59,524 nucleotides of DNA from Rhodobacter sp. CACIA14H1 (GCA_000500915.1 AYNO01000004.1:1-59524), one strand, 5' to 3'. Counted from the stretch's first letter, positions 3,176 to 18,053 are shown. Numbers and translations: made by a program. Notes: generated by a model from the letters alone, not told the origin.

Positions 3176-3318
3176 CGGGAAACTCCTTCGTCTTGCGCCG
3201 GACGCTATGCCCTGCGTGCCACGCCCGCAAGCCATCCGTCAGGCCCCGTTGACTTGCGGTGGCGGTGCGGGAAACTGCCCGCAAAGGGCCGCGCAAAGGG
3301 CCCGCAAGGGGGGACAGG
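3176..3318. promoter_or_regulatory. divergent promoter region, dehydrogenase / rhaK
   Basis: This 143-bp gap separates two divergent genes and must hold both promoters if each gene is transcribed on its own. I see ribosome sites at each edge (AAGGAG on minus, AAGGGGGGA on plus) but no convincing -35/-10 pair or clear operator. Confidence 0.3.
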
Positions 3319-4670
3319 ATGCGCCACATCGCCGTCATCGACATCGGCAAGACCAACGCGAAACTCCTGTCCATCGACCTTGCCACGGGGGCGGAAACCA
3401 CCATCGCCCGCGCCCCCAATGCGGTGCGCCGCGACGGCCCCTATCCGCACCATGATGCCGATGCGCTCTGGTCCTTCCTGCGGGGGGCGCTGGCCGATCT
3501 CGGCAAGGCCCATCCGGTGGATGCCGTCTCCGTCACCACCCATGGCGCGGCGGCGGCGCTGGTGGATGCGCAGGGCAGACTGACCCTGCCCATCCTCGAT
3601 TACGAACATGACGGCCCCGACAGCCTGCCGGCCTATGACGGCCTGCGCCCCCCCTTCGCGGAAACCGGTTCCCCCGCCTGCCGGTGGGGCTGAACCTCGG
3701 GGCGCAGATATACTGGCAGGCGACGGCCTTTCCCGAAGCCTTCGCCCGCACCCGCCACATCCTGACCCTGCCGCAATACTGGTCCTTCCGCCTGACGGGC
3801 ATAGCCGCCAGCGAAGCCACCTCTCTCGGCTGCCATACGGACCTGTGGAACCCGCACGGCGCCACCTTCTCCACGCTCGTGGACCGCATGGGCTGGCGCG
3901 ACCGCTTCCCGCCCGTCCGCAAGGCGGGCGACATCCTCGGCCCGCTCCTGCCCGCCATCGCGGCGGAAACGGGCCTGCCCGCCGATACCCCCGTCCTCTG
4001 CGGCATCCACGATTCCAACGCCTCGCTGGTGCCATGGCTGGCGGCCCCCGGCCCCCGCGCCATCCTGTCCACCGGCACATGGATGATCACCATGGCGCTG
4101 GGCGGCAAGGCCGTGACGCTGGACCCCGAACGCGACACGCTGATCAACGTCAACGCACGCGGCGAGCCCGTCCCCACCGCCCGCTTCATGGCAGGCCGCG
4201 AGTTCGAGGAAATCGCAGGCCAGACCCCCGCCCCCGCCACCGAAGCAGACGAAGCGACCGTCCTGCAAAACTCCATCATGGCCCTGCCATCCCTCCACCC
4301 GACCACCGGCCCCTTCCCCGGCAAGTCCTTCGCATGGACCACGGAACCCCAAGGCGCGGAACGCACCGCCGCCGCCTCCTTCTATGTGGCGCTGATGGGC
4401 GCGGCCTGCCTTTCGCTGATCGGGGCCGAAGGGGAAACGGTGATAGAAGGCCCGCTCGCCCGCAACCACGCCTTCGCAAGGATGCTGGCCGCCGCCACCG
4501 CCCGCCCCGTCACGCTGGCGGGTCAGGGCGCGGGCACCGGCCTTGGCGCGGCGCTGCTGGCCGGACCGCTTGGCACCGCCCCCGCGGGACGCCAGACCGT
4601 CCAGCCGCCGCAAGACCCGCGCTATGCCGCCTATGCGGCCGCATGGCAGGCCAAGGTCAGCGCCCGCTGA
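3319..4670 (+). pseudogene. rhaK: FGGY-family carbohydrate kinase, L-rhamnulose kinase type, frameshifted
   Basis: Sugar kinase expected to phosphorylate L-rhamnulose, or to act in rhamnose uptake and phosphorylation as the rhizobial RhaK does. The N-terminal half (AVIDIGKTNAKL, phosphate-binding strand) is in one frame and ends at a TGA at 3691. The C-terminal half (GLNLGAQIYWQA through STGTWMI) continues in the next frame from about 3672. Adding one C to the C5 run at 3671-3675 restores ETGSPRLPVGLNLGAQ and a protein of about 450 aa, the normal length. The start at MRHIAVID has a strong AAGGGGGGACAGG ribosome site. Both halves are well conserved, so a sequencing error or very recent mutation is likely. 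The gene converges on rhaM with a 4-bp gap instead of ending the minus-strand operon as in Rhizobium. Confidence 0.85.
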
Positions 4671-4674
4671 CCCG

Positions 4675-4989
4675 TCACGCCATGTAGAACGTCTCGTCCA
4701 AGGGCACCGCCACGGGCGACCCGTCCGGGTTCGTCCGCATGATGTCGCCCATGAAGGCCCACCATTTCCTCATCACCGGATGGTCGGGCAGGTCCGCCAT
4801 CGCATGATCGTCCCGCCGTTCCAGATAGCCGAAAAGCACCATCGTCTCGCGGTCCAGATGGATGGAGTAGTTGGAAATCCCCGTCTGCCGCAACAGGTCC
4901 ACCAGTTCCGGCCAGATCTCGTCATGCCGGCGGATGTATTCCGCCTCGCATCCCGGGTTCAGATACATCTTGAACGCATGTCGCTGCAT
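4675..4989 (-). CDS. rhaM: L-rhamnose mutarotase
   Basis: Interconverts alpha and beta anomers of L-rhamnose so that the isomerase receives its preferred form. It is called RhaU in rhizobia and RhaM in E. coli. The 104-aa length is exactly that of the family. Typical motifs are visible: [39 protein letters not shown], and the conserved C-terminal [13 protein letters not shown] and LDETFYM. It is the last gene of the minus-strand rha operon, 10 bp downstream of rhaQ, and meets the kinase gene tail to tail. Confidence is very high from sequence and context together. Confidence 0.96.
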
Positions 4990-4999
4990 CGCCGCCCCC

Positions 5000-5953
5000 C
5001 TATGCCCGCGCCCGCCGCGCCCGCAGGTCGCCCACCATGTTGGGCAGCAGCACCGACAGGATCAGCAGCGTCCCGATCACCCCCGTCTGCACATGCCCCG
5101 TGATGTTCAGCAGCGCCATCCCGTTGCGCAGGTTCAGGATGATCAGGATCGCAAGGAACACCCCCGCCATGCTGCCCTTGCCGCCAAAGATCGACACGCC
5201 GCCCAGCAGCACCATGGTGATGATGTCCAGCTCGAACCCCAGCGCGGAATCCCCCCGCACCGACCCCAGCCGCGCGGCATAAAGCACGCCCGCCACCGCC
5301 GAAATCACCCCCGACATCACGAATAGAATTGCCTTCACCCGCGCCACGTCCACGCCGGAAAACCGCGCCACCTCGGCATTGGTGCCGATCACCACGACCT
5401 GACGCCCGAACCCCGTGCGGTGCAGCAGCACCCCCAGCGCGACCAGCAGGACGAAGAACAACACCAGCGACAGGGGCAAGGGCCCGATCAGCCCCTTCTG
5501 GCCAAGCTGCGTCACCCATGCCGGGAAATTGCCCAGCGACGTGTCCTGCACGATCACCCGCGACAGGCCGCGGAAACAGATCATCATCGCCAGCGTCACC
5601 ACCAGCGACGGTATCCCCACCCGCGCCACCAGCAGGGCATTCACCAGACCCGCCAACAGCCCCACGCCCAGACAGACCAGCGCCGCACTGCCCCCGCCCC
5701 AGCCGCTGTTCAGCAGATAGGCGAAGACCACCGCCGCCAGCCCCATGACGGACGCGACCGAAAGGTCGATCTCGGCATTGATGATGATCAGCGTCATCAC
5801 CAGCGCGACGATGATCTTTTCCACCGAAAGCTGGAACAGGTTGATCTGGTTCTGCACCGTCAGGAATTCCGGCGCGAAGCTGACATTCAGCGCCAGCGTG
5901 GCAAGGAAGACGACCAGAAGCCCCCCTTCCCAAGACCTCAGCCAGCCCATCAT
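5000..5953 (-). CDS. rhaQ: rhamnose ABC transporter permease RhaQ
   Basis: Inner-membrane permease of a CUT2-type (ribose/xylose-like) sugar ABC transporter, about 317 aa with 8-10 hydrophobic helices. The BPD_transp_2 signature is seen as [17 protein letters not shown] and in [12 protein letters not shown] near the C-terminus. The ORF track extends it far upstream through the rhaP gene in another frame, which is a shadow. The start MMGWLRSW at 5953 gives an ATGA overlap with the rhaP stop, so the two are translationally coupled. It pairs with RhaP, RhaT and RhaS to import rhamnose. Order and strand match the rhizobial rhaSTPQU arrangement. Confidence 0.93.
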
Positions 5954-6959
5954 TCCGCCCCCCCGTCCTTGCGCCGCATCCGCGCCAGTTGCCGCGCCGC
6001 CAGCGTGTCCACCGTCACCGCCGCCATGATCAGCATTCCCAGCAGCGCGTCGCGCCAGAACTCGCTGACCACGGCCCAGCGCGTCAGGGAATTGTCGATC
6101 GTATCGACCAGCACCGTCCCCATCAGCACGCCGAGGATCGTCCCCGACCCGCCCATGATGGACACGCCGCCCACCACCACGGCGGCGATGGATTTCAGCT
6201 CGAAGCCCAGCCCCGCGACGACCGTGATGTTCCCGAACTTGGCAAGGAAGATGAACCCCGACAGCCCCGCCAAGGCCCCCGCCAGAACGAAGGCCGTGAA
6301 GACCACCCTCGGCGCGTCGATCCCCGCCATGCGGGCCGCATCGGGGTTGGACCCCACCGCAAGGAACTTCCGCGCCGCCCGCAACCGCGACAGCGCCACG
6401 CCCGTCACCAGACAGGCCGCCAGCGCCAGCACCACCGTCACCCGCACATCCAGCGCCCCGATGGAAAACAGGCTCGCCTGCGGCAGGTCCACCAGCCATT
6501 GCGGCAGGCTGGCCGTGGTGATCGTGGTGGCGTTGGAATATTCCACAAGGAACGACCGGTACAGCGCCAGCGTCCCCAGCGTCACGATGATCGACGGCAC
6601 GCGCCCCCATGCGATGATGACGCCGTTGATCGCCCCCGCCACCGCGCCGATCCCCATGGCCAGAAGCACCGCGAAGACCGGATGCATCTCCGGCATCGCG
6701 CCGAGCGCCTGCCCGGTCATATAGGCCACGACCCCAAGGATGGACCCGACCGACAGGTCGATGTTGCGCGTCATGATGACGATGGCCTGACCCACCGCGA
6801 TGGGCAGGACCACGGCGGCGGATGTCGAAATCCGGTTGAACATCCGCGCCGACAGATACCCTTCGATCTGCGTGGAAAAGAACAGAACCACCGCCAGCAG
6901 CGCAAGGAACAGCGCCACCAGCCGCAGCGTCTGGGGCGAGACGCGACCCAACAGACCGT

Positions 6960-6963
<4 letters not shown>
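5950..6963 (-). CDS. rhaP: rhamnose ABC transporter permease RhaP
   Basis: Second CUT2-family permease, 337 aa, with 8-10 predicted membrane helices. The conserved loop [14 protein letters not shown] is near residue 65, and the C-terminal cytoplasmic motif [14 protein letters not shown] contacts the ATPase in this family. Start and stop overlap their neighbours by 4 bp on both sides (rhaT upstream, rhaQ downstream), which indicates one transcript and coupled translation. It is paralogous to RhaQ, as expected for a heterodimeric sugar channel. Confidence 0.93.
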
Positions 6964-8465
<1,502 letters not shown>

Positions 8466-8495
8466 CGGACATTCCGTCAGGGTGCAGGGAAGGGA

Positions 8496-8521
8496 TCGGG
8501 GCCGCGCATCCGCAGCCCCGA
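8496..8521 (-). promoter_or_regulatory. intercistronic hairpin between rhaS and rhaT
   Basis: Within the 80-bp gap after the binding-protein gene, TCGGGGC and GCCCCGA form a 7-bp GC-rich stem with a 12-nt loop. There is no T-run. Such hairpins after binding-protein genes commonly stabilise that part of the message or attenuate downstream genes; this function is inferred here. Confidence 0.4.
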
Positions 8522-8545
8522 CCATGTTTCGGGATGGACCCCGCC

Positions 8546-9592
8546 TCAGTTGGCGGCGGCTTCCACGTTGTCCTTGGTATAGATGGTGAACGGCCCCATC
8601 AGGATGCGCTTGGCACCCGCACGGCCGGGGTCTTCCTCGATCTTGAAGGTGCCCATGCGGCCCGCCGTGAACTCTTCGCCCACCTCGCCCTTGATGGCGC
8701 CGGTCGCCAGCGCATAGGAGGCATGATAGGTCAGATAGCCAAGGTCCACGAAGCTCCACAGCGCGAACTGGGGGGCGCAGCCGTTCAGCGAATAGCTGAC
8801 CATCTCGGCCGGCAGACCCAGACCCGACACCTTCACCTTCTCGCACAGGCCCTCGTCCTGCATGGCCTTCGCGGCGGCCACGATGCCCACCGTGGTCGGC
8901 GCCATGATCACCTTCAGGTCCGGATACTTGTCCACCAGACCAAGGGCGCGGTTGTAGGACTCTTCCGACTGGTCATTGCCATAGACCACATCGACCAGCT
9001 TCAGGTCCTTGTACTTTTCGCCCGCCAGCGCACCCTTCATCGCCTCGATCCAGGCGTTCTGGTTGGCGGCATCGGGGCTGGCCGACAGCACGGCGAATTC
9101 GCCCGCGCCACCGGCAAGGTCATAGGCCATGTCGGCCATCACCGTGCCGATGGAGCCGAAATCCACCTGCGCCACGAAGAAGGATTCCCCCGCCCCGCTG
9201 GGAATGGGGCTGTCCCAGGTCACGACCTTGGTGCCCGCCGCCTGCGCGGCCTCGGCGGTCGCGGCGATCTGGTCGCCCGCGTTGTTCGACAGCATCACCA
9301 CGTTCTGCTTCTGCGTGGTCGCGGTCGTCAGCATCTCGATCTGGCCGGCGGCCGAATTCTCCGGCGTCGGGCCGATGAATTCCAGCGTGCCGGTCGATCC
9401 CAGCTCTGCCGCCGCTTCCTGTGCGCCGCGGTTCGCCTGATCGAAGGGCAGGATGCCCAGGAACTTCGGCAGCAGCACGGCATTCACGGCCTGCCCCGGC
9501 GCGGCGGTGACGGGTTCGGCCATCGCGGTCGTGCCCATCAGACCGGCGACAAGACCCGCGGCCAGCGCCAGCCCCTTCATCTTCATCATCAT
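8546..9592 (-). CDS. rhaS: rhamnose ABC transporter substrate-binding protein
   Basis: Periplasmic sugar-binding protein of the Peripla_BP_4 (RbsB-like) family, 348 aa. A Sec signal peptide is evident: MMMKMK, a hydrophobic core, then cleavage after TTAMA. The mature part has family features such as [32 protein letters not shown] and VVTWDSPI. Three ATG codons in a row follow a GGGAGGAG ribosome site; the first (9592) has the best spacing. It lies first among the transport genes, 37 bp after the regulator, and is followed by a hairpin that may raise its expression over rhaTPQ. Confidence 0.94.
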
Positions 9593-9629: not shown

Positions 9630-10430
9630 TCACGCCGCCGCAGGCACCTTCACGTCCTTCGGATCGGTCAGGATCACCTCCACCCCCACGCCGCGCAGAT
9701 GGTCCACCATGTGCTGCGGTGCGCCGGTATCGGTGATGACGGTCGAGACGCGGGTCAGCGGGCAGACCACGATGTTCCCCCGCGCCTCGAATTTGGAACT
9801 GTCCACCAGAACGATCAGCCGTTCCGTGCGGCTCAGCAGCTTTGCCTCGGCCCGGGCGATCAGGGGATCGCTCTCGATCACGCCCAGCGGCGTGATGGCA
9901 TAGGCCGACATGAACATCTTGGACGCCGCGAAATGCTGGATCGCGTCCTCGTCGAAAGGCGACAGGATGATCCCCGGCTCGCGGTACAGCTCCCCCCCGG
10001 GCAGCACCACGCGGTTGGCGGAATTGGCGATCAGCTCCTGCGCGATGGGGAAGGAATTGGTCAGGACCTGCATCCGCTTGGCCCGCAGGCATTGCGCCAT
10101 GAACCACGTCGTGGACCCGGCATTCAGGATGATCGAATCCCCGTCCTCGCACAGCCCCGCCGCCGCTGCGGCAATCGCCTGCTTTTCCGTGGCATGGATC
10201 GTCTGGCTTGCGCCGAAGGACGTGGCCGTCAGCTCGTTCTGTCCCGACACCTCGGCCTGTTCCGCCCCGCCATGGACGCGGCGCAACTGCCCCGAATCCT
10301 CCAGCTTCGCCAGATCGCGGCGCAGCGTGGCGACCGAAGCGCCGGTCCACAGCGCAAGATCGCTCACGCGGACGATGCCCCGTTCGCGCAGTTTCGTCAG
10401 GATGAGGGTCCAGCGTTCGCGTTCATGCAT
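9630..10430 (-). CDS. rhaR: DeoR-family transcriptional repressor of the rha locus
   Basis: DeoR/GlpR regulator, 266 aa. The N-terminal helix-turn-helix is seen at residues about 6-57 ([28 protein letters not shown]). The C-terminal DeoR sensor domain includes [22 protein letters not shown], and DSSKFEARG near the end. In rhizobia the matching protein represses the rhamnose genes until a pathway intermediate is present; the same role is inferred here. It is the first gene of the minus-strand operon and divergent from rhaD, so it probably controls both arms from the 160-bp region between them. It is not related to the AraC-type RhaR of E. coli. Confidence 0.9.
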
Positions 10431-10590: not shown

Positions 10591-12660
10591 ATGACCAAGG
10601 ATCTCCTCCTTCCGTCCCTCTGGGACGACGCACATGCCGCGACACTGGATGAACCGGGGCTGCTCCTCTACCGTTCGAATCTCCTCGGCTCGGACCTGCG
10701 CATCACCAATTTCGGCGGTGGAAACACCTCGGCCAAGGTGGCGGCAAAGGACCCGCTGACCGGGGCGGATGTGCAGGTGCTGTGGGTCAAGGGATCGGGC
10801 GGCGACATCGGGTCGATGAAGCTGGACGGCTTCGCCACGGTCTATATGGACCGCCTGTTCCAGCTCCGCGCCCAGTACCGCGACCTTTCGCAGGAAGACG
10901 CGATGGTCGAGGCATTGTCGCATTGCATCTACAACCTGAACCCCCGCGCCCCCTCGATCGACACATGGCTGCACGGCTTCGTCCCCCGCGCCCATGTGGA
11001 CCATGTCCATTCCGATGCCGTCATCGCCATCGCCGCCTGCGCCGATCAGGTGCGGCTCACGCAGGAAATCTTCGGCGGCGATCTGGGCTATCTGCCGTGG
11101 CAGCGTCCGGGCATCGACCTTGGCATCAAGCTGGGCGAACTGGCCGAAAGGAACCCGCACCTGAAGGGCGTCGTCCTTGGCCAGCACGGGCTGTTCACAT
11201 GGGCCGATACCGCCAAGGACTGCTACCTCCTGACGCTGGAGATGATCAACAAGGCCGCCGTCTGGCTGGATGCCAACGTCAAACGCCCCGTCTTCGGCGG
11301 CGAACGCACCCCCGCCCTGCCCGCGCAGGACCGCAAGGCCGAAGCCCGCCGCCTGATGCCGCTGATCCGGGGCCGCATCTCGGCCTCCGAGATGAAATCC
11401 GGCCACTTCACCGACGCGCCCGAAGTGCTGGACTTCGTGAACTCCCACGCGCTCGACGCGCTGGCGCCCCTCGGCACCTCCTGCCCCGACCACTTCCTGC
11501 GCACCAAGATCAAACCGCTGGTCATCCCCGCAGGTGCCGACACGGCCACCCTCGACACCCTCATCGCGCAATACCGCGCCGATTACGCCGCCTATTACGA
11601 CCGCTGCAAACGCCACAACTCCCCCGCCATCCGCGACCCCAACGCGGTGATCTACCTGATCCCCGGCGTCGGCATGATCTCCTTCGCCAAGGACAAGGCC
11701 ACCGCCCGCATTTCCTCCGAATTCTACGTCAACGCCATCAACGTCATGCGCGGGGCCTCGGGCGTGTCCACCTATCAGGGCCTGCCGGAGCAAGAAGCCT
11801 TCGACATCGAATACTGGCTGCTGGAGGAAGCAAAACTCCAGCGGATGCCGAAACCCAAACCCATGCAGGGCCGCGTGGCCTTCATCACCGGCGGCGCGGG
11901 CGGCATCGGGTCGGCCACCGCCGACCGCCTGCTGCGCGAAGGCTGCAACGTGGTGCTGGCCGATATCGACGCGAAATCGCTGGACGAAGTCACCGCAGGC
12001 TTCGCCAAGCGTTACGGGCGCGACATGGTCCGGTCGGTGGTGATGGACGTGACCAGCGAGGCACAGGTCATCGCGGCGCTGGAAACCGCCGTGGCGGAAT
12101 ATGGCGGGCTCGACGTGGTGGTGAACAATGCAGGCATCACCTCTGCCGCCGCCGTGGAAGACACCACGCTTGCCATGTGGAACCGTACCTTCGACATCCT
12201 CTCGACCGGCTATTTCCTCGTGGGCCGCGAAGGCTATCGCATCATGAAGGCGCAAGCCCTCGGCGGCTCCATGATCTTCGTGTCGTCCAAGAACGGTGTC
12301 GCCGCCTCGCCCGGTGCTTCCGCCTATTGCACGGCCAAGGCCGCCGAAATCCACCTCGCCCGCTGCATGGCGCTGGAAGGCGCGCCGATGGGCATCCGCG
12401 TCAATGTGGTCAACCCCGACGCCGTCCTGCGCGGGTCCAAGATCTGGCAAGGCGAATGGAGCCAGCAACGCGCCGCCTCCAACAAGATCGCCGTTGACGA
12501 GCTGGAGGAGCATTACCGCAAGCGCAGCCTCCTCCAGCGGTCGGTTTTCCCGGAAGACATCGCCGAAGGCATCTTCTTCTTCGCCTCGGACCTGTCCGCC
12601 AAATCGACGGGGAACTTCCTGAACGTCGATGCGGGCAACGCCATCTCCTTCACGAGGTAA
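10591..12660 (+). CDS. rhaD: bifunctional rhamnulose-1-phosphate aldolase / short-chain dehydrogenase
   Basis: About 689 aa, the normal length for the two-domain RhaD of alphaproteobacteria. Residues about 1-400 form a class II aldolase domain (ITNFGGGNTSAK, the metal-ligand segment HVDHVHSDAV, and HGLFTW) that splits rhamnulose-1-phosphate to DHAP and L-lactaldehyde. Residues from about 424 form a short-chain dehydrogenase (FITGGAGGIG, NNAGIT, YCTAK), expected to oxidise the lactaldehyde to lactate. The start MTKDLLLPS was preferred over the track start 21 residues upstream because family members begin here. It is followed after 3 bp by rhaI, and both are divergent from the transport operon. 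Confidence 0.93.
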   Translation: MTKDLLLPSLWDDAHAATLDEPGLLLYRSNLLGSDLRITNFGGGNTSAKVAAKDPLTGADVQVLWVKGSGGDIGSMKLDGFATVYMDRLFQLRAQYRDLSQEDAMVEALSHCIYNLNPRAPSIDTWLHGFVPRAHVDHVHSDAVIAIAACADQVRLTQEIFGGDLGYLPWQRPGIDLGIKLGELAERNPHLKGVVLGQHGLFTWADTAKDCYLLTLEMINKAAVWLDANVKRPVFGGERTPALPAQDRKAEARRLMPLIRGRISASEMKSGHFTDAPEVLDFVNSHALDALAPLGTSCPDHFLRTKIKPLVIPAGADTATLDTLIAQYRADYAAYYDRCKRHNSPAIRDPNAVIYLIPGVGMISFAKDKATARISSEFYVNAINVMRGASGVSTYQGLPEQEAFDIEYWLLEEAKLQRMPKPKPMQGRVAFITGGAGGIGSATADRLLREGCNVVLADIDAKSLDEVTAGFAKRYGRDMVRSVVMDVTSEAQVIAALETAVAEYGGLDVVVNNAGITSAAAVEDTTLAMWNRTFDILSTGYFLVGREGYRIMKAQALGGSMIFVSSKNGVAASPGASAYCTAKAAEIHLARCMALEGAPMGIRVNVVNPDAVLRGSKIWQGEWSQQRAASNKIAVDELEEHYRKRSLLQRSVFPEDIAEGIFFFASDLSAKSTGNFLNVDAGNAISFTR

Positions 12661-12663
12661 CAG

Positions 12664-13956
12664 ATGACCGACCTCATCTCGCCCGACCTGATCGGCAGCC
12701 TGAACGAACAGGCCCGCATGGCGCATGAAGACGACCTCGGGTCGCTGGGCCGCCAGCTTGCCCGCCGTGGCATCGACATCGAATCCGTGATCCGACGCGC
12801 CATGCAATGGACGGTCGCCATCCCCACATGGGGCGTCGGCACCGGCGGCACCCGCTTTGCCCGCTTCCCCGGCGCGGGCGAACCGCGCGGCATCCATGAC
12901 AAGCTGGCCGATTGCGGCGTGATCCAGCAACTGACGCGCGGCACCCGCACCGTCAGCCCGCATTTCCCGTGGGACGAGGTGTCGGATTACAACGCGCTGC
13001 GCCAAGAGGCAGCGCAATACGGGCTCGGCTTCGATGCGGTGAACTCCAACACCTTCCAGGACCAGACCGACCAGACCCACAGCTACAAATACGGCTCGCT
13101 GGCATCGGCCAAGAAAGACACCCGCGCCCAGGCCGTCGCCCACAACATCCGCTGCATCGAAATCGGCAAGCAACTGGGGTCACAATCCATCACCGTCTGG
13201 ATCGGCGACGGCACCAACTTCCCCGGCCAGCAAAGCCTGACCCGCATGTTCGAAAACTACCTCGACGCGATGGGCGACATCTACGCCGCCCTTCCGCCCG
13301 ACTGGTCCATGTTCATCGAACACAAGATGTACGAACCGGCCTTCTATTCCACCGTCATCTCCGACTGGGGCAGCAGCCTGATCGCCGCGCAGACCTTGGG
13401 GGACAAGGCGAAATGCCTCGTGGACCTCGGCCACCACGCGCCCAACGTGAACATCGAACAGATCGTGGCCCGCCTGATCCATGTGGGCAAGCTGGCAGGC
13501 TTCCACTTCAACGATTCCAAATACGGCGACGACGACCTCGATTCCGGCTCCGTCGATCCCTTCCGCCTCTTCCTCGTCTTCAACGAACTGGTGGATGCCG
13601 AAGCCCGGGGCGCCAAGGACTTCCGCCCCGCCTACATGATCGACCAGAGCCACAACGTCACCGACCCGATCGAAAGCCTGATGTCCTCGGCCACCGAAAT
13701 CGCCCGCGCCTATGTGCAGGCGTCACTGGTGGACCGCAAAACCCTGTCCGAGGCGCAGGCCGAAAACGATGTCATGGCCGCCCACCGCCTGCTCAAGGCC
13801 GCCTATATCACCGACGTCTCCCCCATCCTTGCCGAGGCGCGGCGCAGGCAAGGCGGGGCGCATGACCCCATCGCCGCCTACCGCGCCGCAGGCTACCGCG
13901 CACGGGTGGCCAAGGACCGGCCCGTGGTCAAGGGCGCTTCCTCGGGCATCGTGTAA
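12664..13956 (+). CDS. rhaI: L-rhamnose isomerase, rhizobial type
   Basis: Converts L-rhamnose to L-rhamnulose, the step before phosphorylation. It has 430 aa and belongs to the RhaI family of rhizobia (xylose-isomerase-like TIM barrel), not the shorter-range E. coli RhaA type. Metal and substrate residues are seen in SNTFQDQ, FIEHKMYEPAF, VDLGHHAPN and FHFNDSKYGDDDLDSGS. It lies 3 bp after rhaD and 11 bp before the DUF4037 gene, so the plus-strand arm appears to be one transcript through at least GH78. Confidence 0.94.
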   Translation: MTDLISPDLIGSLNEQARMAHEDDLGSLGRQLARRGIDIESVIRRAMQWTVAIPTWGVGTGGTRFARFPGAGEPRGIHDKLADCGVIQQLTRGTRTVSPHFPWDEVSDYNALRQEAAQYGLGFDAVNSNTFQDQTDQTHSYKYGSLASAKKDTRAQAVAHNIRCIEIGKQLGSQSITVWIGDGTNFPGQQSLTRMFENYLDAMGDIYAALPPDWSMFIEHKMYEPAFYSTVISDWGSSLIAAQTLGDKAKCLVDLGHHAPNVNIEQIVARLIHVGKLAGFHFNDSKYGDDDLDSGSVDPFRLFLVFNELVDAEARGAKDFRPAYMIDQSHNVTDPIESLMSSATEIARAYVQASLVDRKTLSEAQAENDVMAAHRLLKAAYITDVSPILAEARRRQGGAHDPIAAYRAAGYRARVAKDRPVVKGASSGIV

Positions 13957-13967
13957 GGGGGCGGGGG

Positions 13968-15020
13968 ATGAAGCGGTCCATCATCGACGACAGCCGCGAC
14001 TTCTGGGACGAGATCGTCCTTCCCCTCCTCCGATCCCATTTCCCCGAAGAAACCAACCACATGGCCGCAGGCTTCTTCGGCTACGGCTCCGAAGTGCTGC
14101 GGCTGGACGACCGCTATTCCACCGACCACCACTTCGGCCTGCGGGTGAACATCCTGCTGCCCGAAGCCATCAAGTCCGCCCGGGGCCAAGCCATCGAAGA
14201 CGGCCTCGCCGCCCACCTCCCGCATACATGGCGCGGGCAGGAACTCCGCGAAGGCTACACGCGGACGAAGGGCGTGGAACTCGCCAGCCTGGAACACCAC
14301 CTGCGCTCCACCATCGGTCTGGACCACCCGCCGCAGACCCTGACCGAATGGCTGAAGATACCGGAGGAAGACATCACCCACATCGTGGCGGGCGAAGTCT
14401 GGCACGACCCTTCCGCCCGTTTCACGGCGATCCGCGAAACGCTGGCCGCCTACTACCCCGAACCTGTCCGCCTGCGCCGCCTCGCGCATTGGTGCCGCTA
14501 CTTCTCCGGCATGGGGGTCTATGCCCTGAAACGCGCCCTGCTGCGCGACAACCTGCTTTACGCCAACACCACCTTCGCCCGCTCCCTGCGCTGGGGCGTG
14601 CAGATGGCCTTCCTTCTGGACCGCCGCTACTACCCCTATGACAAATGGATGACCGAGATGTTCCACCGCCTCCCCCGCATGGGGGCGCGGCTGGCCCATA
14701 TCGTGGACGAAGCCCCGCGCCTCGACACCCCGTGGCAGCGCAAGCTCGACCTGCTGCACGACATGTCCGACATCCTCGACGCCGCGATGGTGGAAGACGG
14801 GCTCATCGCCCCCCATCCGCCATACCGCGTCTCCGAAACCTCCGGCTACCGGCTGCTTGAATCCGCCTATGCCGAACTGATCCGCCAATGCCCGCCCGAA
14901 ATCCACGGCACCGTCCCCGAATGGGAACAGGTGCATTGGGAAGGGTTCCATTCCCGCTTCGTCGCCGACGTCGATCTGGCCGACTGGCGCCGTATGCTCG
15001 TTCTGGAGGAAATCCGATGA
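13968..15020 (+). CDS. DUF4037 domain protein (nucleotidyltransferase-like)
   Basis: 350-aa protein with a DUF4037 signature near residues 30-60: GFFGYGSEVLRLDDRYSTDH followed by HFGLRVNILL. DUF4037 is related to the nucleotidyltransferase fold, where a GS motif and paired acidic residues bind NTP and metal. Here the usual DHD appears as DHH, so catalysis is uncertain. The rest is helical with many Arg and Trp residues (LAHWCRYFSGMGVYALKRALLRDN). Its stop overlaps the next start as ATGA, so it is coupled to the UroD-like gene and sits 11 bp after rhaI. No published role in rhamnose metabolism is known to me. Family assignment is fairly sure; function is unknown. Confidence 0.75.
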   Translation: MKRSIIDDSRDFWDEIVLPLLRSHFPEETNHMAAGFFGYGSEVLRLDDRYSTDHHFGLRVNILLPEAIKSARGQAIEDGLAAHLPHTWRGQELREGYTRTKGVELASLEHHLRSTIGLDHPPQTLTEWLKIPEEDITHIVAGEVWHDPSARFTAIRETLAAYYPEPVRLRRLAHWCRYFSGMGVYALKRALLRDNLLYANTTFARSLRWGVQMAFLLDRRYYPYDKWMTEMFHRLPRMGARLAHIVDEAPRLDTPWQRKLDLLHDMSDILDAAMVEDGLIAPHPPYRVSETSGYRLLESAYAELIRQCPPEIHGTVPEWEQVHWEGFHSRFVADVDLADWRRMLVLEEIR

Positions 15021-16003
15021 ACTCCCTCGACCGCGTCATGGCCACGCTCAACCACCGCCCCGTGGACCGCACCCCCATCGACTGCTGGCTCTACCAGAAG
15101 CAATTCCTCGAACGGCTGGAAGCGGATTACGGCCCCCGCGAGAAATTCATCGAAGAATTCGGCATCGACGTCTTCGTCGGCCTCATGCCCTTCCCCAACC
15201 AGCACGGGCGCAAATTCGACATCCACGAACTGGCCGAAGTCCCGCTGGAAGACCCGCGCCACCCGAAATGGCTGAACTTCACCGACTGGAACTACGATTT
15301 CGGCGGCGTCAACATCGCCACCGCCATCCGCGACCACAAAGGCAAACGCTGCGTGCTGGCCCATTGCTGGGGCATGGTCGAAGGCACCTCGTCCTTTCTG
15401 GGGATCGAAAATTGCTGGATGAACCTCGGCGGCAACCCGGACCTCATGGCCAATTTCTTCGACCGCTATGCCGACTGGATGTGCGTGCAGGTGGACCAGA
15501 TGGTCGAGGCGGGCGTGGACATGATGACCCTGTCGGACGACTGGGGATCGAACGGCACCATGCTCTTTTCCCCCAAATCATGGCGCGAGCTGATCAAGCC
15601 CTATGCCATGCGCGTGGTGCAGCACGCCCGTTCGCGGGGGATGCCCGTCAACCTGCATTCCGACGGCTACATCATGCAGATCCTCGATGACATCGTGGAA
15701 ATGGGCTACACCTCCTGGCATCCCGTGCAGGAAAGCGCGGGCATGGACCCGCGCGAGATCAAGGCGAAATACGGCGACAAGATCGTGATCTACGGCTCGC
15801 TCGACGTGGTGGACGGGCTGCTGAAATATGACGGCGAGGAGCTGGACGAATACATCACCGAACGCTTCGGCATCTACGCCCCCGGCGGCGGCTTCATCTT
15901 CAACGGCGGGCATTTCATCCAGCCCGACATCCCCCCCGCCCGCCTGATCCGCGCCTACCGGCTGGTGAACGAACTCGCCCGCCAATACGGCACGCTGCAA
16001 TAG
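15017..16003 (+). CDS. uroporphyrinogen decarboxylase-superfamily protein (not HemE)
   Basis: 328-aa TIM-barrel protein of the UroD/MtaA superfamily. It starts with MNSLDRVMATLNHRPVDRTP, the classic start of the non-HemE branch, and lacks the RQAGR motif of true uroporphyrinogen decarboxylases. Family landmarks are DDWGSNGTMLFSPKSWRE, VNLHSDGYIMQ, YGSLDVVDGL and NGGHFIQPDIP. MtaA-like methyltransferases bind zinc with H-x-C in the LHxCG segment; here it reads LHSDG, so the cysteine is an aspartate. The start overlaps the DUF4037 stop by 4 bp. Paralogues of this branch are seen near sugar genes in other bacteria, as I recall, but no reaction is established. A role on rhamnosides or methylated sugars is only a guess. 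Confidence 0.8.
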   Translation: MNSLDRVMATLNHRPVDRTPIDCWLYQKQFLERLEADYGPREKFIEEFGIDVFVGLMPFPNQHGRKFDIHELAEVPLEDPRHPKWLNFTDWNYDFGGVNIATAIRDHKGKRCVLAHCWGMVEGTSSFLGIENCWMNLGGNPDLMANFFDRYADWMCVQVDQMVEAGVDMMTLSDDWGSNGTMLFSPKSWRELIKPYAMRVVQHARSRGMPVNLHSDGYIMQILDDIVEMGYTSWHPVQESAGMDPREIKAKYGDKIVIYGSLDVVDGLLKYDGEELDEYITERFGIYAPGGGFIFNGGHFIQPDIPPARLIRAYRLVNELARQYGTLQ

Positions 16004-16013
16004 GGCGCGGGCG

Positions 16014-18014
16014 GTGCAGCCACCCGCAGGGACATACTGGATCGGGTCGGACCACCCCTTCGACCTGCACGAATGCTATCTGGTCTTCGTGGCCGACCTG
16101 ACCCTTGCGGAAACCCCGCGCCAAGCCACCCTCCACCTCACGGCCGACAGCCGCTACCGCCTCTACGTCAACGGCACTTTTATCGGCCGAGGCCCCGAAC
16201 GCTCATGGCCCGCCGCAATGGCCGTGGACTCCCGCCCCCTGCCCCTGACCGCAGGCACCAACCGCATCCGCATCGAGGTCTATTCCCCCGGCTATTCCCA
16301 CTTCGCCCATGTCCACCGCGCCGCCTGCGGCCTGCTGGCATGGGCGGAGATCGACGGCGAAACCCGCATCCCCACCGACCGCGACCACTGGCGCGTCCGC
16401 CGCGACCCGTCATGGTCCGCCCATGTGCCGCGCATCTCCATCTACGGAACCGGTGTCGAAGACCGCGACCTGACCCGCGCCCTTCCCCACGATGCCGACA
16501 CCGCCACATGGGCGCAACCCCGCATCGTCCAGCCGCCCGAAGGCCCGGTCTGGGCCACCCTCCGCCCCCGCACCACCCCGCTGCTGGACGAACCGCTCCC
16601 CCCCCTCACCACCCCGTGGCGCACCCACTACGGCCCGACGATCCCGCAGGACGACCCGCACGAAGCGATCCGCCGCGCCCTCACCCTGCCGCAAACCCCG
16701 ATCCCCGCGACGATCCCCGCAGGCCACACCGCCCTCTGGATCTTCGACCTCGGCCAAAGCCGCACCGCCACCGCCGCTGCCACGATCACGGCAAACCAAG
16801 GCGACACGCTGACCGTCAGCTATGCCGAGAAACTGCGCAACGGCGCCCCCCTCATCTCCGACCCCGCCACCTATTGCCGGATGCGCCCCAGCGACCGCTT
16901 CCGCCTGACCGAAGGCCGGAACCACATCGAAGGCTTCACCCCGCGCGGCGCGCGCTACATCCTGTTCCAACTCGACACCGCCACAGGCACCACGCCCGAC
17001 CCCACTTTCCACGCCCGCCTGCCCGCCTACCCCCCGACGCCACCGGAACCGCAAGACCCCGTCGCCGCCCTCTGCCAGCGCACCACGCTCGCCTGCCTGC
17101 AAGACGGCTTCACCGACTCCGTCTGGCGCGAAAGCTCCCAATGGCTGGGCGATGTCGTGGCCCAGTCCTTCGCCCTTCTGGCGATCACCGACGACCCCCG
17201 CCCCCTGCGCCTGACGCTGGAACAGGCGGCGCAAGGCGCGGCCGAGGACGGCATCCTCCCCTCCGTCCTCCCCGGCGACGTGCCCGCCTATGTCGTCACC
17301 GACTACAACTTCTCATGGGTGGAACTGCTGCACTTCTGGCACCACCACCCGCAGACCGACCCTGCCCTGACGGCCGAACTCTGGCCCACCCTCACCCGCC
17401 TGCTGGACCGCTTCCACGCCGACCTCGCCCCCGACGGCCTGATCCGCAGCCAGCCGGGCCGCCGCCTCTTCCTCGACTGGTCCACGATGAACCGCGCCGA
17501 ACCCAACCTCACCTACAACCTGCGCTACCTGCACGCCCTGCAAACGGCGCAAACCCTCGCACAGGAAACCGGCCACCCCGCCCCCGCCACTTGGGGCCAG
17601 CGCAGCGAAACCCTCGCCGAAGCCATCCGCACCACCCACCACACCCCCCAAGGCTGGCAGGAAAGCCCCACCGGCACCCCCGCAAGCCAGCTCGCCCTCG
17701 CCTTCCTGATCCTGACGGGTCTCTCCGACCAACCCGATACCCACGCCACAACCATCACCACCCGCTCCCTCGACCTTGACGACGGCCCCAAGACCCCGAC
17801 CCTCGCCAGCCCCTTCATGCACCACTACCTGTTCCAGGCCCTCCACCACCTGAACCGCCCGCAGGACATCCGCGCCATCATCCACGCCCGCTGGGGCCGC
17901 TGGGTGCAGGAAGGCCGCGCCACCACGCCCGAAAACTGGAACATCGACTTCCCCGACGGCTCTGCCTGCCACGGCTTTTCCGCCCATCCCCTGCGCTGGC
18001 TGCAGATCACCTGA
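16014..18014 (+). CDS. GH78-type alpha-L-rhamnosidase
   Basis: Glycoside hydrolase expected to release L-rhamnose from rhamnosides, 666 aa. The N-terminus is a jelly-roll domain (RYRLYVNGTFIGRGPERSW, typical of GH78 carbohydrate-binding parts). The (alpha/alpha)6 catalytic part follows, with the acidic motif DSVWRESSQWLGD near residue 365 and the conserved end CHGFSAHPLRWLQI. The start is a GTG 10 bp after the UroD-like stop. There is no signal peptide, so the enzyme should act in the cytoplasm on imported small rhamnosides. As the last gene of the rhaD-rhaI arm it feeds the pathway with free rhamnose. Confidence 0.88.
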   Translation: MQPPAGTYWIGSDHPFDLHECYLVFVADLTLAETPRQATLHLTADSRYRLYVNGTFIGRGPERSWPAAMAVDSRPLPLTAGTNRIRIEVYSPGYSHFAHVHRAACGLLAWAEIDGETRIPTDRDHWRVRRDPSWSAHVPRISIYGTGVEDRDLTRALPHDADTATWAQPRIVQPPEGPVWATLRPRTTPLLDEPLPPLTTPWRTHYGPTIPQDDPHEAIRRALTLPQTPIPATIPAGHTALWIFDLGQSRTATAAATITANQGDTLTVSYAEKLRNGAPLISDPATYCRMRPSDRFRLTEGRNHIEGFTPRGARYILFQLDTATGTTPDPTFHARLPAYPPTPPEPQDPVAALCQRTTLACLQDGFTDSVWRESSQWLGDVVAQSFALLAITDDPRPLRLTLEQAAQGAAEDGILPSVLPGDVPAYVVTDYNFSWVELLHFWHHHPQTDPALTAELWPTLTRLLDRFHADLAPDGLIRSQPGRRLFLDWSTMNRAEPNLTYNLRYLHALQTAQTLAQETGHPAPATWGQRSETLAEAIRTTHHTPQGWQESPTGTPASQLALAFLILTGLSDQPDTHATTITTRSLDLDDGPKTPTLASPFMHHYLFQALHHLNRPQDIRAIIHARWGRWVQEGRATTPENWNIDFPDGSACHGFSAHPLRWLQIT

Positions 18015-18053
18015 CCCTTCACCCGCAGCCCCGTTTGCGCTATGGGGCAGCGC

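Follow-up and report, generated by a model that had tools for sequence, protein, structure and literature searches.

The window analysed here, a 59,524-nucleotide stretch of DNA from Rhodobacter sp. CACIA14H1, carries a rhamnose locus with genes on both strands. The minus strand holds RhaM together with an ABC transporter (4675–9592) and a DeoR regulator (9630–10430). The individual genes are a RhaM/RhaU-type mutarotase (4675–4989), which shares 32–47% identity with the RhaM homologues found beside the triad described below in other phyla, ABC transporter permease 2 (5000–5953, start approximate), permease 1 (5950–6963), the sugar ABC transporter ATPase (6960–8462), the sugar-binding protein of the same operon (8546–9592), and the DeoR-family, RhaR-like regulator (PF00455, E 1.6e-41). 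On the plus strand follow, from 5' to 3', RhaEW, a rhamnulose-1-phosphate aldolase/short-chain dehydrogenase (10591–12660), the rhizobial-type L-rhamnose isomerase RhaI (12664–13956; TIGR02629, 680 bits against a cut-off of 647), a DUF4037 protein of 350 aa (13968–15020; PF13228, E 7.1e-27), a TIM-barrel protein of the UroD superfamily of 328 aa (15017–16003; PF01208, E 1.4e-23; hereafter UroD), and a GH78 alpha-L-rhamnosidase-like protein of 666 aa with a GTG start (16014–18014; PF17389, E 1.3e-17). The start of RhaEW was placed from relatives, using the homologue length in L003.

The last three genes are tightly packed behind rhaI. The RhaI stop (13956) is separated from the DUF4037 ATG (13968) by 11 bp, the DUF4037 TGA (15018–15020) and the UroD ATG (15017–15019) share an ATGA in a 4-bp overlap, and the UroD stop (16003) lies 10 bp before the GH78 GTG (16014). 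When the ORFs were re-derived, the coordinates, strand, both gaps and the overlap given by the first-pass annotation proved exact. What it had named rhaD encodes the bifunctional aldolase-dehydrogenase RhaEW (NF006189, 1117 bits). Between 9500 and 18200 the plus strand showed no terminator-like site. Downstream of GH78 a different ORF, RimO-like by eye, starts at 18042, and in L014 gyrB is the next gene after the triad; the gene after GH78 thus varies among relatives, and GH78 is taken as the end of the block. At 3259–4670 on the plus strand, a rhamnulokinase-like gene is frameshifted into two overlapping ORFs. It is a single intact ORF in the congener G011 (L202), and the frameshift may stem from faulty assembly or from a mutation that arose recently.

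The transporter of the window differs from the canonical one. Its binding protein scores 281 bits against TIGR02637, below the cut-off of 342 for canonical RhaS, and belongs to a 'RhaS-II' type in a clade apart from the type-1 RhaS, whereas the RhaS of the triad-less relative G008 (type-1 locus L157) scores 466 bits. Triad-less congeners and other relatives carry such a type-1 rha locus, laid out in the same way but with a different RhaS and ATPase: compared with the window, identities are 37–38% for RhaS and 43–46% for the ATPase, against 61–66% for RhaI and RhaEW. The second RhaS type is also present in the triad loci of Chloroflexota, and equally in triad-less Rhodobacteraceae, where it belongs to another kind of sugar locus. 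In nine such genomes (L193–L201) its neighbours, named by reading their sequences, are mostly apparent MocA-type oxidoreductases, TIM-barrel proteins and RhaM-like mutarotases, apparently an oxidative sugar locus. A joint movement of transporter and triad is unsupported, as the RhaS-II proteins of Rhodobacterales group with those of triad-less Rhodobacteraceae (support 70 and 88). At most, the second RhaS type hints that the substrate is something other than free rhamnose.

The distribution of the three genes was examined in the genomes of 85,462 species of bacteria and archaea, using UroD as the sole seed. Of the 55 loci returned, 54 are close relatives, from Rhodobacterales, Chloroflexota (Anaerolineae, Caldilineae and relatives) and Planctomycetota (three loci). 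The UroD subfamily is sharply bounded, its members scoring at least 556 bits against 134 for the next paralogue, and a single member was present in every genome checked. Among loci whose flanks are long enough to judge, DUF4037 lies directly upstream of UroD in 45 of 49 (Rhodobacterales 29/29, Chloroflexota 13/17, Planctomycetota 3/3) and GH78 directly downstream in 38 of 44 (26/27, 9/14 and 3/3, respectively). The 4-bp overlap between DUF4037 and UroD recurs in 31 loci (25 Rhodobacterales, 4 Chloroflexota, 2 Planctomycetota). The first-pass annotation had asked whether the pair keeps company with sugar genes across genomes, and it does: other rhamnose genes are nearby in 38 of the 42 loci of at least 9 kb (Rhodobacterales 26/27, Chloroflexota 10/13, Planctomycetota 2/2). 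The triad is not absolute, as GH78 is absent beside the DUF4037-UroD pair in L037, L044 and L045, and UroD lacks both partners in L036.

The rhamnose genes beside the triad are non-orthologous between phyla, and isomerase and transporter types differ among them. In Rhodobacterales, including the window, the partners are RhaEW-RhaI; in L030 they are RhaA-RhaB-RhaD with the ABC transporter RhaSTPQ, in L054 the order is LacI-triad-RhaM-RhaT and in L048 triad-RhaM-RhaT. Elsewhere the triad faces rhaI-rhaEW instead of standing behind it (L027, L028) or comes after RhaM and a GMC oxidoreductase (L017). The three proteins give congruent trees (distance correlation 0.86–0.96 over 32 loci); the correlation is weak inside the 8 Chloroflexota. 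Rhodobacterales form one clade in each of the three trees and probably go back to a single acquisition followed by descent, so that the independent contexts number nearer three to five than 54. Carriers are rare, amounting to 2 of 61 relatives, 2 of 190 Rhodobacteraceae genomes (almost every one of a different genus), 1 of 400 Chloroflexota, and 1 of 392 Planctomycetota, where two distant homologues were also seen; no close relative was found in the plasmid records searched. The patchy spread, as among relatives and in Chloroflexota, would be in keeping with unrelated genes that simply read into each other behind rhaI. However, the same order and coupling are kept in three phyla despite different surrounding rhamnose genes, which rules out that the triad is a passenger or a set of chance neighbours for all practical purposes. 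We conclude that the three genes almost certainly form a functional, rhamnose-linked module.

The GH78 protein matches Bac_rhamnosid6H (PF17389) with 64.6 bits against a cut-off of 24.5, and its closest solved structure is RhaB of Bacillus sp. GL1 (PDB 2okx, E 5.7e-83). Residues D368, E373, D380 and E640 are invariant in 20 sequences and align with D567, E572, D579 and E841 of RhaB, which we take to be its catalytic acids. By domain and catalytic acids the protein thus appears to be a member of the alpha-L-rhamnosidase family, and it is probably cytosolic, since no signal peptide was apparent by eye.

UroD scores above the curated cut-off of PF01208 in the profile search, and its AF2 model (mean pLDDT 92.4) matched HemE, MtaA and MetE in Foldseek, with HemE ranked above MtaA. 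It reaches 40.8 bits against the hemE equivalog TIGR01464 (cut-off 302.95) and 40.1 bits against the MtaA/CmuA model TIGR01463 (cut-off 235.4), and carries HSDG...H, not His-Cys-Cys; the curated cut-offs rule out both HemE and MtaA as its identity. The invariant columns include HSDG and GG(F)...H; the putative metal site would consist of H214, D216 and H299 (counted from Met1; 213, 215 and 298 in alignment A1). In profile alignments HSDG falls on the HxCG of MtaA and the later His on the His of FNxGHG in HemE, which lacks the HxD half of the site. The S-methyltransferases of the superfamily use a His-Cys-Cys site, while in O-directed members carboxylates or non-coordinating residues replace one or both Cys (PMC10418091), and some members are reported to lack zinc (PMC13222342). 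The invariant HxD...H of UroD is consistent with the former rule for O-directed enzymes. Paralogues with the HxDG...H motif in UroD-carrying Chloroflexota genomes adjoin corrinoid or B12-binding proteins in L032 and L204, and in L203 such a paralogue is fused to B12-binding domains. In L205 an HxDG UroD also adjoins a B12-binding domain protein. The fusion in L203 (705–2627, 640 aa, from a Chloroflexota genome) has a CmuA-like architecture. The Chloroflexota region L032 (4735–19801) holds, besides the triad, four further UroDs, two corrinoid proteins, a GDSL esterase and a metallo-beta-lactamase-fold protein.

The DUF4037 protein matches PF13228 with 94.5 bits, the Pfam gathering threshold being 22.1; a search of solved structures with its sequence gave no match. 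Its AF2 model (pLDDT 89.7) predicts an N-terminal nucleotidyltransferase-like fold and a C-terminal helical DUF4037 domain, and the best Foldseek matches, weak but consistent, were ANT(4')/kanamycin nucleotidyltransferases (E 3e-3, probability 1.0). The corresponding motif is degenerate (GYGS..L..DD..S.DHH.G). D47, D48 and D53 are invariant in the clade, but the second acid of DxD is a His throughout, and across the DUF4037 family the residue found there varies among H, D, E, W, G and Y. No conserved third acid was found in the DUF4037 alignments, so that the GS...DxD/E motif with a third acid of an active kanamycin-type nucleotidyltransferase is lacking. Because DHH replaces DxD and a conserved third acid is missing, we do not call the protein a nucleotidyltransferase; it would rather be a non-canonical partner or binding subunit.

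The invariant DHH was ruled out as a hallmark of the clade, since other DUF4037 proteins share it. A general coupling of DUF4037 with UroD was likewise ruled out: among other DUF4037 loci, sampled from Planctomycetota, Chloroflexota and the phylum of G067, one further pair was seen. That second adjacent UroD-DUF4037 pair (L072, 7648–10211) contains a UroD of another subfamily (448 aa) and adjoins a sugar MFS transporter in the same planctomycete genome. Related DUF4037 genes have no adjacent UroD in L110, L111 and L112, and in L110 (4068–6211) and L112 (5925–8133) these close relatives adjoin Gfo/Idh/MocA oxidoreductases.

No corrinoid gene was found in the rha locus of the window, and just two of the 54 loci, L032 and L054, have corrinoid proteins close to the triad. 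In the latter, from Planctomycetota, the LacI-triad operon diverges from one that encodes a corrinoid protein, an MTHFR-like protein, an amidohydrolase and a RACo activase; the equivalent corrinoid operon of G065 sits elsewhere and not by the triad. Each of the ten UroD-carrying genomes tested encodes one or more B12-binding_2 proteins; the corrinoid protein of the window's own genome (G000) is encoded at the C65 locus (L140). Rhodobacterales have exactly one each, whether triad-bearing (4 genomes tested) or triad-less (9 genomes tested), so presence of the protein does not discriminate and fails as a predictor of the triad. The corrinoid supply permits corrinoid-dependent demethylation and is no proof of it.

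On this basis we propose that a small rhamnoside would be imported by the divergent ABC transporter of the window and hydrolysed by GH78 in the cytosol, and that the UroD-fold enzyme, with the translationally coupled DUF4037 protein, would remove a substituent that would block RhaI. This substituent would most likely be an O-methyl group, passing via the metal site to a stand-alone corrinoid protein and the one-carbon pool. The freed L-rhamnose would go to RhaI, the kinase and RhaEW, and hydrolysis and demethylation could occur in either order. Here we infer the substrate, the direction of demethylation, the metal and the use of a corrinoid protein. To the reading that the triad lets rhamnose users consume a modified rhamnoside, with UroD and DUF4037 as O-demethylating proteins, we assign a probability of about 0.4. 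O-demethylation is favoured because HxD...H fits the O-directed rule and the HxDG...H paralogues are corrinoid-linked. More tentatively still, a corrinoid-class UroD and DUF4037, as an unrecognised partner, may remove O-methyl groups from rhamnose in aerobes as well.

The main rival to O-demethylation is that UroD is a cobalamin-free, metal-dependent TIM-barrel enzyme (a decarboxylase, lyase, epimerase or hydrolase) which, partnered by DUF4037, would use its 2-His-1-Asp site to act on either the aglycone or a modified rhamnose. Most triad loci have no corrinoid gene, Foldseek places HemE above MtaA, the later His aligns with a HemE His, and aerobic Rhodobacterales are among the hosts, all of which would suit such an enzyme; the HxDG...H paralogues, fused to or adjoining B12-binding domains, and the missing HxD half in HemE argue in the other direction. 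We consider this rival possible, though somewhat doubtful.

The first-pass annotation had suggested that the two coupled proteins act on rhamnosides by removing or adding a methyl group or a nucleotidyl tag. The tie of the pair to GH78 and rhamnose genes holds across phyla, and removing a methyl is the option that best suits the class of UroD, while the tag is weakened by the degenerate site of a fold that is otherwise nucleotidyltransferase-like. An active nucleotidyltransferase that tags a sugar or protein, with UroD acting on the tagged intermediate, would be in keeping with the match to enzymes that modify sugar hydroxyls and with the three invariant Asp residues. It appears improbable given a clade-wide His at a family-variable position, the lack of a conserved third acid and fold E-values of just 3e-3. 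The degenerate appearance of DUF4037 and the tight coupling of the two genes could instead mean that the pair senses rhamnose-operon conditions or regulates the operon and catalyses no step, but UroD retains an invariant active-site-like constellation and many loci already have dedicated DeoR or LacI regulators, which makes this role unlikely too.

Methylated deoxysugars are present in algal and bacterial polysaccharides, and a small transferable block in the rhamnose loci of three phyla is a testable candidate for a methyl-rhamnose route; several culturable strains carry it, among them Tabrizicola flagellatus (L005), Rhodobacter calidifons (L015) and Stagnihabitans tardus (L028). If O-demethylation is correct, the triad would be a dedicated, transferable assimilation system for methylated deoxysugars, and would provide the first function for a DUF4037 clade, as well as a role for the branch with HxDG...H within the large UroD superfamily. 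The arrangement, which the first-pass annotation had put forward as an undescribed system, is real and undescribed in the literature searched. In the searchable literature, outside which most subscription papers lie, we found no paper joining rhamnose, rhamnosidase, operon and uroporphyrinogen decarboxylase, none on a dedicated rhamnose demethylation route, and nothing on the triad system among work on methyl-sugars and corrinoids; DUF4037 is mentioned there, never with a rhamnose function. Uroporphyrinogen decarboxylase is absent from the main text of a 2013 survey of rhamnose regulons (PMC3870299).

Among known systems, the methyltransferase I components of corrinoid O-demethylases (OdmB, VdmB, MtvB; for haloalkanes CmuA, CdmB) share with UroD the fold, a putative carboxylate-for-Cys site and same-motif paralogues adjacent or fused to corrinoid-binding domains. 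In contrast to these, the window operon has no corrinoid protein, methyltransferase II or activase, and its UroD is paired with DUF4037 in a sugar rather than an aromatic or haloalkane context. The methylcobamide:CoM methyltransferases MtaA and MtbA have the same fold (PDB 4ay7) and HxxG loop position, but HxCG...C where UroD has HSDG...H. HemE shares the fold and the GHxI loop with its conserved His, whereas UroD has the HxD site and sits in a sugar operon. ANT(4')/kanamycin nucleotidyltransferase resembles DUF4037 in predicted fold, including a helical C-terminal domain, and differs in having DxD/E and a third acid where DUF4037 has DHH. GH78 has the N- and C-terminal domains and catalytic acids of RhaB of Bacillus sp. 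GL1, but is shorter (666 vs 956 aa) and coupled to UroD and DUF4037. Finally, the rhizobial-type rha operon (rhaRSTPQUK/rhaDI; RhaEW variant, PMC3870299) and the window locus are both arranged as divergent operons with DeoR, RhaEW, RhaI, mutarotase and ABC transporter genes, to which the window adds DUF4037-UroD-GH78 and an ABC binding protein of another type.
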